NCBI GenBank assembly: GCA_014874455.1
Contig: JADBJL010000065.1
Coordinates: forward strand, 1-64,000
DNA from: Thermomicrobiaceae bacterium
GTDB taxonomy: Bacteria; Chloroflexota; Chloroflexia; Thermomicrobiales; Thermomicrobiaceae
DNA: 64,000 bases
Reading direction: 5' to 3'
How positions within the stretch are numbered: position 1 is the first letter of the stretch; each line of letters opens with the position of its first letter. Made by a program: the position numbers and the translations under genes. The notes beneath the pieces were generated by a model that was given only the letters and a program-made list of their open reading frames with translations, searched no databases and was not told where the DNA came from. Shown piece after piece: positions 11,893 to 37,716 of the stretch.

Positions 11893-11921
11893 TTGACAGC
11901 CCGTCGCCGTGCGACTATACT
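11893..11921 (+). promoter_or_regulatory. Strong promoter of the Cys-leader/OsmC unit
   Basis: TTGACA (11893-11898), a 17-bp spacer and TATACT (11916-11921) match the sigma-70 consensus almost fully. Transcription would start near 11928, about 405 nt before the OsmC-like gene. This leaves a long leader that holds the cysteine-rich ORF and several hairpins. Confidence 0.85.
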
Positions 11922-11980
11922 GTGGCGTCGTGTCGATCCGAGGCCGACTCGGTGAGGAATGGCGCTGGATCGAGGCGGAC

Positions 11981-12112
11981 ATGCGAGAGATTCGGCTTAC
12001 GCGACCAGTGTGCGATCACCAGTGCGTCTGCGACTGGCCGGTTCCGCCATGCCCGCCGATGATTGGCGTGTTCTCCTTCTGGCCCCGTATCTGCGGCTGT
12101 ACCTGCCGCTGA
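11981..12112 (+). CDS. Cysteine-rich mini-ORF (candidate attenuator leader peptide)
   Basis: A 43-codon ORF with seven cysteines (positions 11, 15, 17, 24, 38, 40, 42), including CxxxCxC and a C-terminal CGCTCR just before the stop. GAGGCGG lies 4 nt before the ATG. An earlier in-frame ATG at 11909 falls inside the promoter and is rejected. The TGA stop forms the base of a hairpin (TGATCGGC/GCCGATCA, 12110-12144). Clustering of Cys codons at the end, followed by hairpins and sulfur genes, fits a cysteine-responsive attenuator. Polycysteine leader ORFs of this kind are known ahead of rhodanese operons in mycobacteria. Alternatively it is a small metal-binding peptide. No homologue is recognised. 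Confidence 0.5.
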   Translation: MREIRLTRPVCDHQCVCDWPVPPCPPMIGVFSFWPRICGCTCR

Positions 12113-12144
12113 TCGGCCGCTCGGGAGCGCGAGCTCGCCGATCA
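12110..12144 (+). promoter_or_regulatory. Hairpin overlapping the mini-ORF stop codon
   Basis: TGATCGGC pairs with GCCGATCA (8 bp). The loop holds a smaller GCTC/GAGC stem. Because the first three bases are the stop codon of the cysteine-rich ORF, a ribosome paused near the terminal Cys codons would affect its folding. Confidence 0.45.
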
Positions 12145-12206
12145 GCTCCCCGGCATCTTCCAGCCCAACCGATCGCGTGAACGGTCAGTCTGTGACGCTC
12201 GCATGA

Positions 12207-12243
12207 GCGGGCAGTGTCCTGATGCAGTCAGGACATGACCCGC
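12207..12243 (+). promoter_or_regulatory. Second leader hairpin before the OsmC-like gene
   Basis: A perfect TGTCCTGA/TCAGGACA stem with a TGCAG loop is nested in an outer GCGGG/CCCGC stem. The following CCGTTCG is not U-rich. It could be the terminator or anti-terminator arm of the proposed attenuator, or simply a structured leader. Confidence 0.45.
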
Positions 12244-12332
12244 CCGTTCGAGCTCGTCGCTGGAACGCCCGGACGGTGAGTGACACCGAGTGGGTGATGT
12301 GCCAGTAACCAGAGCCGAGGAAGAGGGAGAGT

Positions 12333-12881
12333 ATGGCCAAAAACGGCCGTGTCACCGAAGCGATGAGCATGTTGAGCTCGGCCATCCAGGCCAACCCAGC
12401 GATGGCGGAGGGCCTTGTCCGGGTGCGTACCCGCTGGGCCGGCGGAACCAGGGTCATTGGCAACGCCCGCGACTTCGCGCCGATCACGGTCGACGAGCCA
12501 CCTGGTCTCGGCGGCGACGATCAGGGGCCGACGCCCGTCGAACTCCTGCTGATCGCGCTCGGCTCCTGCCAGGAGATCGTCTACGCTGCCTATGCGGAGC
12601 AGTTCGGCATCAAGCTCGACGCGATCGAGATCGAGCTCACCGGAACGATCGACCTGCGCGGCTTTCTCGGCATCGAGCCATCGGTGCGCCCCGGCTTGAC
12701 GCGCATCGAGACGCGGGTACGGCTGGTCAGCGATGCGCCCGAGGAGCGACTACGCGAGTTGACGGATCTGGTCGAACGGTTCTGCCCGGTTCAGGACATG
12801 CTGACCAACCCGGTACCGATCACGACGTCACTCGCGATCGAGCGACCGACCGCACACAGCGTGAGTGCCAGCCGGTCGTAA
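12333..12881 (+). CDS. OsmC/Ohr-family thiol-dependent protein
   Basis: This 182-residue protein belongs to the OsmC/Ohr peroxiredoxin-like superfamily, whose two cysteines reduce organic hydroperoxides. The reactive pair is visible as C79 in ALGSCQEIVYAAYA and C151 in RFCPVQDML. The GGxxQGPTPVELLLIALGSC segment is the usual helix start. The N-terminal 25 residues are extra and helical. GAGGAAGAGGGAGAG precedes the ATG. It stands first in a block of sulfur-related genes and behind the cysteine-rich leader ORF, so a role in thiol or sulfane-sulfur chemistry is as plausible as peroxide defence. Confidence 0.88.
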   Translation: MAKNGRVTEAMSMLSSAIQANPAMAEGLVRVRTRWAGGTRVIGNARDFAPITVDEPPGLGGDDQGPTPVELLLIALGSCQEIVYAAYAEQFGIKLDAIEIELTGTIDLRGFLGIEPSVRPGLTRIETRVRLVSDAPEERLRELTDLVERFCPVQDMLTNPVPITTSLAIERPTAHSVSASRS

Positions 12882-12899: not shown

Positions 12900-12928
12900 T
12901 TGACAGTCATCTCATCAAGGGCTAGTAT
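12900..12928 (+). promoter_or_regulatory. Promoter of the rhodanese gene
   Basis: TTGACA (12900-12905), a 17-bp spacer and TAGTAT (12923-12928) lie 50 nt ahead of the rhodanese GTG. The rhodanese-SufU part can therefore be transcribed independently of the OsmC leader. Confidence 0.75.
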
Positions 12929-12977: not shown

Positions 12978-13871
12978 GTGAGCGTGTCGATCGATCCCCG
13001 GGTTGCAGGACGCGGGTACGCGCATCCCGAGGCGCTGGTGACGACCGAGTGGGTCGCTGAACACCTGGACGATCCGTCCATCCGCATCGTCGAGTCCGAC
13101 GAGGACGTGCTGCTCTACGAACTCGGGCACATCCCCGGCGCCGTCAAGGTCGACTGGCATACCGATCTCCAGGATCAACTGGTGCGCGACTTCATCGGCC
13201 CGGAGCAGTTTGCCCAGCTCTGCTCTCGGCTCGGCATCAGCCCGCAGACGCGGGTCATCTTCTACGGCGACAAGAACAACTGGTGGGCCGCCTACGCCTA
13301 CTGGTTCTTCCGCTACATGGGCCACGGGCCGCTCGCGATCATGGACGGTGGCCGCAAGAAGTGGGAGGCAGAAGGCCGGCCGCTGACCCGGGAGGTGCCG
13401 CAGTACCCGCCGACAGAGTACCCGGTACCGACGCCGAACCCGGAGCTGCGGGCTTTCCGCGACCAGGTACTGGCGCACATCGGCTACCGAGACCGGCGGA
13501 AAGTCGGCGAGGGGAAGCCGCTCGTCGACGTGCGCAGCCCGGGTGAGTACAGTGGCGAGCTCTTGCACATGCCCGACTATCCACAGGAGGGGGCGCTGCG
13601 CGGCGGGCACATCCCCGGCGCGGTGAACATCCCCTGGGCGCAAGCGGTCACGGAGGAGGGGACGTTCAAATCGCCCGAGGAGCTGCGCCAGCTCTACCAG
13701 AGCAAGGGGATCACGCCAGACGAGGAGATCGTCGTCTACTGCCGGATCGGGGAGCGGTCGTCGCACACCTGGTTTGTCCTGCACGAGCTACTCGGCTACC
13801 CGAAGGTGCGCAATTACGACGGCTCCTGGACAGAGTGGGGCAACGTCGTCGGCGTGCCGATCGAGCGGTAG
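12978..13871 (+). CDS. Two-domain rhodanese (thiosulfate sulfurtransferase)
   Basis: A 297-residue tandem rhodanese that transfers sulfane sulfur from thiosulfate to cyanide or thiol acceptors in the cytoplasm. The C-terminal domain has the catalytic loop [12 protein letters not shown] with C255. The N-terminal domain is the structural inactive copy, with FYGDKNNWW (D98) where the cysteine would be. The loop CRIGERS is closer to the thiosulfate-type CRxGxR than to the 3-mercaptopyruvate CGxG(S/T) type. The start is GTG after GGAGGGAGG. It sits 10 bp before a SufU-like gene, suggesting sulfur delivery to or from that protein. Confidence 0.93.
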
Positions 13872-13881
13872 GAGATGCGAA

Positions 13882-14298
13882 GTGGCGACGAGCGCGTTCG
13901 ACCGGCTGCGCGAGCACGCGCGGGAGCCGCATCACTACGGGCCCCTCGAGGACGCCGACGTCGTCCTCGAGGGAGGCAACCCCGAGTGCGGCGACGTCGT
14001 GACGGTCTACCTGAAGCTTGCGGAGGACGGCCACACCATCGCTGCAGCCCAGTTCTCCGGTGAGGGCTGTGGCGTGAGCCAGGCAGCGGCCTCGCTCCTC
14101 ATGGAGCACGTCAACCAGCACCACTGGACGGTCGACGACGTCGCCCAGGCCGACTTCCGGCTCGTCCAGGAGCTGGTCGGCCCCGAGGCCGCGCGCGCCC
14201 GCCCGCGCTGTGCGTCGTTGGCGCTGAGTGTGCTCAAGGCAGCCGTGCAGAAGCTCGCACGTACTCAGCGCCAGGCCGAGCTCGAACGCGAATCGTGA
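13882..14298 (+). CDS. SufU/IscU-like scaffold or sulfurtransferase
   Basis: A 138-residue IscU-fold protein. The metal/sulfur ligand set is complete: C36 and D38 in GNPECGDVV, C63 in GEGCGVSQAAASLL, and C110 in RPRCASLALSV. SufU proteins are zinc-dependent sulfurtransferases for SufS; IscU proteins are Fe-S scaffolds. The spacing is compatible with SufU, but no sufBCDS genes lie nearby, so a dedicated partner of the adjacent rhodanese is possible. The GTG start at 13882 follows GGAGATG; longer frames run into the rhodanese gene. Confidence 0.88.
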   Translation: MATSAFDRLREHAREPHHYGPLEDADVVLEGGNPECGDVVTVYLKLAEDGHTIAAAQFSGEGCGVSQAAASLLMEHVNQHHWTVDDVAQADFRLVQELVGPEAARARPRCASLALSVLKAAVQKLARTQRQAELERES

Positions 14299-14392: not shown

Positions 14393-14887
14393 ATGTCGGT
14401 GGTACCTCGATTTCTCGAGGCGAACGAGCGCTACGCCGCCACCTTCACCAAGGGCGATCTCGCCATGCCGCCGGCCAAGCGCGTGGCCATCCTGACCTGC
14501 ATGGACGCTCGGCTCGACCCGGCGAAGTTCCTCGGGCTGGACGAGGGAGACGCCCACGTGATTCGCAACGCTGGCGGGCGCGCCACAGCGGATGCGCTCC
14601 GCTCGCTGATCATCTCGCAACAATTGCTAGGCACGCGCGAGATCGTGGTCATCCACCATACCGACTGCGGCATGCTCACCTTTACCGATGACCAGCTCCG
14701 CCGGCAACTGCGGGAGCGTTTCGGCGCGCCTGCGGACGACTGGGCATTCCTACCGTTCACCGATCTCGCCCAGAGCGTGCGCGACGACATTGCGACGATC
14801 CGGCGCTCGCCCTTTATCCTGCCCGAGACCACCATCACCGGCTTCGTCTACGACGTGCGCACCGGCCGACTCTCGCAGGTGGAGTGA
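14393..14887 (+). CDS. Beta-class carbonic anhydrase
   Basis: A 164-residue zinc enzyme for CO2/bicarbonate interconversion. Ligands are C36, H89 and C92 (motifs LTCMDARLDP and IHHTDCGM), with the D38-R40 catalytic dyad. The short length and CMDAR/HTDCG forms match the compact cytosolic beta-CA subgroup seen in actinobacteria and thermophiles. GGAGGAAGC precedes the ATG. The gene lies between SufU-like and methanethiol oxidase genes. Bicarbonate supply or CS2/COS-type hydrolysis in a sulfur context is conceivable but not shown. Confidence 0.93.
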   Translation: MSVVPRFLEANERYAATFTKGDLAMPPAKRVAILTCMDARLDPAKFLGLDEGDAHVIRNAGGRATADALRSLIISQQLLGTREIVVIHHTDCGMLTFTDDQLRRQLRERFGAPADDWAFLPFTDLAQSVRDDIATIRRSPFILPETTITGFVYDVRTGRLSQVE

Positions 14888-14987: not shown

Positions 14988-16379
14988 ATGGCGACCTGGC
15001 GACCCGACCCGACCTTCTACCCGTCTCCACGCTCGGCGATGAAAGCCCCGCCGGAGGAGCTGGCGTTCGTCGTGCGCATCAACCCCAATGGAGATGGCCG
15101 ACCCGACGCGATCTGCGTGGTCGACGTCAACCCCCGGTCGAGCTCCTACGGCAAGGTCGTCGGCGAAGTCGAGATGCCGTACACCGGCGGCGAGCTGCAC
15201 CACTTCGGGTGGAATGCCTGCAGCTCGATGCTCTGCCCCAACGCGCCGCACCCGCATGTCGAGCGGCGCTACCTCGTGGTGCCCGACATCCGTAGCTCGC
15301 ACATCACGATCATCGATACCAAGCCGGATCCTACCCAGCCCAAGGTGGCGAAGGTCATCGAGCCGGAGGAGCTCTTCGAGCGCGCCTACTACGCCCGCCC
15401 GCACACGGTGCACTGCGGCCCCGACGGCATCTACATCTCCGCGCTCGGCACCCCGGAGGGCGACGGCCCCGGCGGCATCTTCATCCTCGACCACGATAGC
15501 TTCGATGTACTGGGCCGCTGGGAGATCGACCGCGGCGACCAGTACCTCCACTACGACTTCTGGTGGCATCTCGGCTACGACACCATGATTACCAGCGAGT
15601 GGGGTACGCCGAAGATGGTCGAGAACGGCGTACAGGGGGAGGCGTTGCTGGCTGGCCAGTACGGCCACCGGATCCATCTCTGGGATCTCCACCGGCGCCG
15701 CCGGCTCCAGGCACTCGACCTCGGCAGCGAGCACCAGATGGTGCTGGAGCTGCGCCCAGCCCACGACCCCACGAAGGCCTACGGCTTCGTCAACAGCGTC
15801 GTGAGCCTGAAAGATCTCTCCTCCGCCATCTGGCTGTGGCACCGGCAGAACGGATCCTGGGCCATCCAGAAGGTGATCGAGATCCCCGCCGAACCAGCAG
15901 AGGAAGAGCAGCTCCCGGACATCCTGAAGCCGTTCAAGGCGGTTCCGCCACTGGTGACTGATATCGATCTGAGCGTCGATGACCGGTTCCTCTACGTCTC
16001 TTGCTGGGGCACCGGCGAGCTGCGACAGTACGACGTCTCCGATCCGTTCAACCCCAGGCTCACCAGCTCGGTGCAGATCGGCGGGATCGTCCGGCGGGCA
16101 GGCCATCCGGCTCATCCCGCGCCGCTCAACGGCGGCCCGCAGATGGTCGAGGTCAGCCGCGACGGTCGGCGGGTCTACTTCACCAACTCGCTCTACCTGC
16201 CGTGGGACGCGCAGTTCTACCCGGACGGCATCCGGGGCTGGATGGTCAAGCTCGACGTCGACCCTGAGGGCGGGATGGCCTTCGACCCGAACTTCTTCCT
16301 CGATTTCGGCGACCAGCGGGCACACCAGGTTCGGCTGCAGGGCGGCGATGCCTCGACCGACTCGTACTGCTTCCCGTAG
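14988..16379 (+). CDS. Methanethiol oxidase / selenium-binding protein (SBP56 family)
   Basis: A 463-residue beta-propeller of the SBP56/SELENBP1 family. Bacterial members (MtoX) oxidise methanethiol to H2S, H2O2 and formaldehyde with copper. Family motifs include HHFGWNACSSM (71-81, with C78), RRYLVVPDIRSSHITIIDT and RPHTVHCGPDGIYISALG. The usual CSSC is CSSM here, keeping only the first cysteine of the selenium-binding pair, though C83 is close by. The ATG at 14988 has GGAGGGAGG upstream; no signal peptide is seen, whereas many MtoX proteins are exported. The context (rhodanese, SufU, OsmC) supports a C1-sulfur role. Confidence 0.9.
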   Translation: MATWRPDPTFYPSPRSAMKAPPEELAFVVRINPNGDGRPDAICVVDVNPRSSSYGKVVGEVEMPYTGGELHHFGWNACSSMLCPNAPHPHVERRYLVVPDIRSSHITIIDTKPDPTQPKVAKVIEPEELFERAYYARPHTVHCGPDGIYISALGTPEGDGPGGIFILDHDSFDVLGRWEIDRGDQYLHYDFWWHLGYDTMITSEWGTPKMVENGVQGEALLAGQYGHRIHLWDLHRRRRLQALDLGSEHQMVLELRPAHDPTKAYGFVNSVVSLKDLSSAIWLWHRQNGSWAIQKVIEIPAEPAEEEQLPDILKPFKAVPPLVTDIDLSVDDRFLYVSCWGTGELRQYDVSDPFNPRLTSSVQIGGIVRRAGHPAHPAPLNGGPQMVEVSRDGRRVYFTNSLYLPWDAQFYPDGIRGWMVKLDVDPEGGMAFDPNFFLDFGDQRAHQVRLQGGDASTDSYCFP

Positions 16380-37487: not shown

Positions 37488-37618
37488 CGCGTCGCTCACC
37501 TCCGAATCCACTCGTGCCCCTCGCGCGGTCGCGGTAGCGCAGGATGCTGCCTCAACCGACCGCAGCATGCTTGCGACTCGAATCATCGGGCAGCAATCCC
37601 GGTTTTTCCAGCCCGCCG

Positions 37619-37641
37619 CAGTGCGGTCGCACTGGTAGAAT
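37619..37641 (+). promoter_or_regulatory. Palindrome overlapping a candidate hemE promoter
   Basis: CAGTGCG-GT-CGCACTG (37619-37634) is a perfect 7-bp inverted repeat. A -10-like TAGAAT follows at 37636-37641, 76 nt before the hemE ATG. No good -35 is visible, so the promoter may need an activator or the palindrome may be an operator in the -35 region. Confidence 0.4.
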
Positions 37642-37716
37642 TGCGCGTGCACCGGTGGTGCGAGTCCGTGTCGCGACGCCGGTTTCTTCATAGCCGCCTG
37701 GGAACGGTGGAGCACA

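Follow-up and report, generated by a model that had tools for sequence, protein, structure and literature searches.

A short, cysteine-rich open reading frame (ORF) ahead of an OsmC-family gene in a Thermomicrobiaceae contig was found to belong to a previously undescribed leader-peptide family with 42 intact copies in 18 genomes; conservation of the ORF, on which the initial annotation of this DNA had made its proposal depend, is thus evident. The reading we favour, at a probability of roughly 0.6, is that these are cysteine-responsive leader peptides which would act in cis and link multiple sulfur-scavenging operons to the cysteine supply. As judged from the genome searches, the family is confined to the Thermomicrobiales, a mostly heat-loving and little-studied group of the Chloroflexota, and if the reading is true it would amount to an unannotated, ribosome-read regulon outside the Actinobacteria. 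Searches of the open-access literature turned up no description of these leaders in Thermomicrobia.

The stretch of DNA analysed (the window) is 64,000 nt long. The initial annotation, made from its letters alone, had described a consensus promoter, a ribosome site, a 43-codon ORF with seven Cys and a CGCTC cluster near its end, a hairpin that includes the stop codon, a second strong hairpin, and OsmC-like, rhodanese and SufU-like genes downstream. All of these were recovered, together with two further genes, encoding carbonic-anhydrase-like (Pro_CA) and SBP56 proteins. The features are as follows.

11893–11921, + strand: promoter-like site TTGACA-17-TATACT, an 11/12 match to the consensus
11983–12112, + strand: leader ORF, 43 aa, MREIRLTRPVCDHQCVCDWPVPPCPPMIGVFSFWPRICGCTCR, with ATG at 11983, stop codon at 12110–12112 and ribosome site GAGGCGG upstream; relatives and paralogous copies retain it
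12044–12100, + strand: conserved peptide motif PPCPPMIGVFSFWPRICGC, from the family comparison
12080–12100, + strand: invariant core WPRICxC, from the family comparison
12098–12100, + strand: last conserved Cys codon, the presumed pause codon
12108–12146, + strand: predicted hairpin of 10 bp (12108–12117 with 12137–12146) that includes the stop codon
12142–12180, + strand: C-rich stretch after the stop codon, a rut-like candidate (C-G difference 0.23)
about 12205–12249, + strand: second strong predicted hairpin, its sequence not conserved past the closest relative
12320–12331, + strand: OsmC Shine-Dalgarno region GAAGAGGGAGAG, with predicted pairing to the F-S-F-W codons of the leader
12333–12881, + strand: OsmC-family protein, the first gene behind the leader (PF02566, 6.6e-24)
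12978–13871, + strand: two-domain rhodanese, 3-mercaptopyruvate-sulfurtransferase-like (domain and family matches)
13882–14298, + strand: SufU/NifU_N-like protein (domain and family matches)
14393–14887, + strand: beta-carbonic-anhydrase-like protein (PF00484)
14988–16379, + strand: SBP56-family (methanethiol oxidase family) protein, scoring under the NCBIfam cut-off for MtoX

The predicted peptide ends in CGCTCR before the stop codon, and the region contained three promoter-like sites compared with 0.2 in shuffled sequences. A leaderless GTG start at 11930 would be possible in the window; because this codon is missing from the sister species (G003), the ATG at 11983 is the likely start. In most copies of the family the spacing between a promoter-like site and the motif is similar, and an in-frame start typically lies 25–65 nt downstream of the predicted transcription start site; these start sites and most of the start codons are predictions, some copies have low promoter scores, and the downstream gene starts were in most copies set by a simple rule. 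A second promoter-like site in the window (TTGACA-17-TAGTAT, 12900–12928) lies between the OsmC and rhodanese genes, and is also visible in G003; it is not seen in the same-genus genome G001, in which only a few bases separate the two genes. Since the rhodanese gene has this site of its own, the leader would bear first on OsmC, and with the window genes split in this way and those of G001 nearly adjacent, the reach of leader control would differ between species.

When 40 relatives were searched with the peptide as query, matches stood far clear of noise, with several to a genome. Among 61 genomes of the order, a profile search returned 45 matches at E < 1e-5 and, between 1e-5 and 1e-3, two decayed copies, the next match having E = 0.02; the 44 copies read in detail comprise the 42 intact ones and two that are decayed. 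In 61 genomes a DNA pattern of the signature had 50 matches, compared with 2 for a reversed control. That the ORF is a functionless product of chance has its small size as the sole point in favour, and is refuted by the conservation of the ORF, with profile matches clear of noise and such an excess over the control. When a tighter pattern was run against 84,980 species, for which a rough estimate of the chance expectation is about 11, it found 34 stretches. Thermomicrobia or close relatives accounted for 26 of these; the remaining eight lay inside other genes or did not have the shape of a leader. Presence of the family beyond the Thermomicrobiales was considered on the basis of these outside matches and rejected, as they do not resemble leaders and are about as many as chance would give. 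A profile search of 400 genomes across the phylum, among which few represented the other families of the order, gave no match outside the family of the window organism.

The copies share a C-terminal motif, PPC-P-x-M-I-G-V-F-x-F-W-P-R-I-C-x-C, in which conservation spans about 15 residues ahead of the last Cys. With the Trp numbered 0, residues W, P, R and I (0 to 3) are present in 42/42 copies, and Cys is found at +6 in all 42 and at +4 and -10 in 40/42 each; position -1 is mostly Phe, Tyr or Leu, -4 is Val or Leu, -6 is Ile, Asn or Val, and -7 is mostly Met. The conserved Cys residues therefore correspond to three of the seven in the window peptide, the Cys of PPC and both of ICxC, so that the predicted conservation of Cys codons held for these three and failed for the other four. 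The accompanying expectation, that the Cys codons would be conserved without their amino-acid neighbours, was contradicted: WPRI and the stretch preceding it are kept while synonymous change is free. Pairwise codon differences at the P (616) and the R (670) were all synonymous, and selection therefore acts on the peptide.

The codon for the last conserved Cys (+6) is TGT in 42/42 copies, a codon used by neighbouring genes in about 21%, and the TGC:TGT ratio is 36:4 at Cys -10 and 25:15 at Cys +4. Raw counts of this kind overstate independence, as the copies are related by descent; grouped by operon class and genus, the codon is TGT in all 18 groups (0.21^18, about 5e-13, a figure that ignores shared descent). 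The fixation is not an artefact of the search, because the first search used protein and TGC was permitted in the pattern run across the order. Furthermore, the two copies that have no Cys at +4 retain the UGU at +6, which makes +6 look like the key position. Conserved neighbours with free synonymous change, taken together with a single Cys codon fixed as UGU, argue for a contribution of the nascent peptide, and whether the chain takes part is in our judgement evenly balanced.

The same mini-ORF was found ahead of other sulfur genes, a prospect raised in the initial annotation, with up to four copies in one genome. The copies precede at least ten non-homologous operon classes, mostly with sulfur functions. 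These include OsmC with rhodanese, SufU-like, carbonic-anhydrase-like and SBP56 genes, as in the window; SsuA-type sulfonate ABC transporters (SsuABC; TIGR01728 above cut-off); an SCO4226-like gene with an NMT1_2 ABC transporter; a YeeE/YedE sulfur transporter (PF04143); a carbonic-anhydrase-like gene with an SBP56-like gene (the latter read by eye); and an MFS transporter with an acyl-CoA ligase, an O-acetylhomoserine sulfhydrylase (MetY) and an enoyl-CoA hydratase. Classes without a clear sulfur role by sequence are those with a Liv-type ABC transporter, ATP-grasp ligases or a beta-propeller protein. Decayed copies, in which the Trp or a Cys is lost and TGC stands in place of TGT, were seen in G000 (contig 96, about 37558–37649; L066, L100) and G003 (contig 4, 19761–19847; L065), and there the next gene is uvrB, which behind its P-loop holds an intein bearing a LAGLIDADG domain (Pfam Intein_splicing). 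Because one motif heads non-homologous operons and decays where the next gene is unrelated, regulation by the leader is very probably exerted in cis.

How the leader might control its operon was approached through RNA structure. The whole leader of the window folds better than shuffled sequences (z = -3.7), and the stop-codon hairpin is also found in the OsmC leaders of g1 and G005 and is absent in Thermomicrobium. Scans across the family showed modestly more stable folding at the stop codon (mean z -1.05), an effect that is marked in g1, g3, parts of g4 and G032b and missing from Thermomicrobium. Across five sequences the hairpin has a single compensated pair, which does not clearly exceed shuffled controls, and consensus folds of orthologous leaders revealed no structure common beyond the genus. 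Since the hairpins are lineage-specific, they cannot be the common mechanism. No convincing intrinsic terminator was found in the window leader, the other copies being checked for T runs only, and at the Rfam gathering score the window contains two tRNAs and no riboswitch or leader match. In the window, pairing of the OsmC Shine-Dalgarno region with the Phe-Ser-Phe codons of the leader is predicted with P = 0.80. Masking of the Shine-Dalgarno sequence by the leader ORF was rejected as a general mechanism, being strong in the window and weak across the family. In base composition, the family mean of C minus G is 0.121 in the motif and 0.080 in the 40 nt after the stop codon, with no excess of C over G where the ORF encodes the N-terminus, in the remaining intergenic stretch or in the downstream coding sequence. 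Part of this C > G bias follows from the Pro- and Cys-rich motif itself.

These features are compatible with a mechanism in which a ribosome with the UGU codon in its A site, and the ...FWPRIC-x chain in its exit tunnel, would be slowed there. A single tRNA-Cys(GCA) is expected to decode UGU by wobble, and the step could therefore be sensitive to tRNA charging; scarcity of Cys-tRNA would then turn the slow step into a long pause. The paused ribosome would cover the C-rich stretch near the stop codon and keep Rho away, so that the operon is expressed, and in the window the pause may also stop the OsmC Shine-Dalgarno region from base-pairing with the leader ORF. With cysteine sufficient, the ribosome would finish and leave, and expression would be attenuated. 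Cysteine supply is probably the signal, and Rho as the output is a tentative assignment that we hold to be somewhat doubtful. The leaders may even represent a new class of arrest peptide, in which the FWPRI-C-x-C chain primes the pause and a single UGU codon reads Cys-tRNA, coordinating a multi-operon sulfur regulon without a transcription factor, although we consider this rather less than an even chance. The family supplies sharp, testable sequence rules, namely WPRI and one fixed UGU codon, and a pause, if confirmed, would contribute another nascent-peptide arrest motif.

A related possibility is that the chain itself binds or reacts with a ligand (cysteine, sulfide, persulfide, or a metal via the CxC) and stalls or releases the ribosome, the signal then being something other than the level of Cys-tRNA. 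The roughly 15 conserved residues before the last Cys are in line with tunnel contacts, CruR detects copper via a Cys motif of its nascent chain, and in one variant copy (G025, contig 191, L165; from another family of the order) the leader ends WPRICA-stop, with UGA replacing the last Cys codon, so that a Cys-tRNA step may be dispensable there. However, this explanation does not predict fixation at the codon level, and under it the loss of Cys +4 from copies that keep UGU +6 is awkward; we regard it as unlikely. An attenuator of the mycobacterial type that depends on Cys codons only, and to which the neighbouring residues would be incidental, agrees with the terminal Cys cluster and the downstream sulfur genes, and in the window ribosome stalling could release the OsmC Shine-Dalgarno region, but it leaves the invariance of neighbours free to change synonymously without explanation, and the conservation of three Cys residues with no polycysteine run also makes it very unlikely. 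Finally, the peptide might act in trans, as a thiol or metal carrier or the precursor of a modified peptide, its position at the head of operons being incidental. Conservation at the peptide level, with a CxC, would fit; the presence of up to four copies in a genome before unrelated operons, the fixed UGU and the finding of no common modifying enzyme adjoining the copies render this highly improbable.

Canestrari and colleagues reportedly described, in 2020, polycysteine leaderless short ORFs of mycobacteria. For such ORFs, a common signal via translation speed at Cys codons has been proposed, as a further article sets out (PMC9031893). The Thermomicrobiales leaders resemble them in being short Cys leaders, one per operon, on several sulfur operons of a genome. 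They differ in having a C-x-C and one Cys 14 codons earlier and no contiguous Cys codons, in the conserved WPRI and the tunnel-length conservation of the peptide, and in a start that is probably led by a ribosome site. Five members had no match at E <= 10 among NCBIfam models including Ms4527A (NF042936) and Ms5788A (NF042933), and in a positive control the NCBIfam Cys-leader models did respond to consensus sequences. The Actinobacterial model NF042934 (cis_reg_atten, 'putative leader peptide') is likewise short, with C-terminal Cys and conserved residues before it, but these residues differ in the Thermomicrobiales peptide, and no member of NF042934 above cut-off was found in 41 relatives. 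By these sequence criteria the family is like the Actinobacterial Cys leader peptides in outline and is not a member of them. As it lies outside the Actinobacteria and its peptide is unrelated, it has apparently arisen independently. The suggestion of an independent cysteine attenuator in a distant phylum is therefore upheld as regards a conserved, multi-copy leader ahead of sulfur genes, and not as regards a plain Cys-codon mode or a shared hairpin mechanism.

Upstream ORFs of the CruR/RAPP type have a conserved C-terminal Pro/Arg motif, and arrest of the ribosome keeps Rho off a C > G stretch, so that the operon is transcribed; CruR is a longer, DUF2946 protein whose CXXC copper site is well N-terminal to the arrest motif (PMC9426467, PMC12992588). 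The Thermomicrobiales leaders are likewise upstream ORFs with Pro and Arg in a conserved C-terminal motif, and on average they have a C > G bias, due in part to motif composition, within the motif and directly behind the stop codon, of the kind described for the Rho-controlled cruR operon. Unlike the RAPP-type peptides they have no RAPP or RGPP, the end being WPRICxC, and unlike CruR the Cys residues of the peptide, about 40 aa long, are at the presumed pause site. Peptide conservation near the C-terminus with synonymous freedom is shared with nascent-chain arrest peptides generally.

Several copies and their neighbours merit separate mention. In G030 (contig 2, 4426–4506; L064) a damaged second copy, in which the last Cys has become Trp, lies about 0.8 kb upstream of an intact one. 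The variant leader of G025 precedes a cupin gene (Pfam Cupin_1, a weak match) whose product, by eye, resembles cysteine dioxygenases. Leader position is likely a hint of sulfur functions for the ATP-grasp, SCO4226-like, beta-propeller and Liv-type ABC genes. The unnamed ATP-grasp ligases behind leaders (L073:208-1194, L076:350-1339, L095:1629-2768) could possibly join a thiol or other sulfur compound, and beta-propeller proteins of no named family stand directly behind leaders in genus g4 (L059:1144-2592, L051:1782-3224). At L046 and paralogous Thermomicrobium loci, the O-acetylhomoserine sulfhydrylase in the operon with the MFS transporter, acyl-CoA ligase and enoyl-CoA hydratase carries a CoA-binding domain; the matches of the acyl-CoA ligase of this class include a 3-(methylthio)propionyl-CoA ligase model, below cut-off, and the operon might serve methylthiopropionate use.
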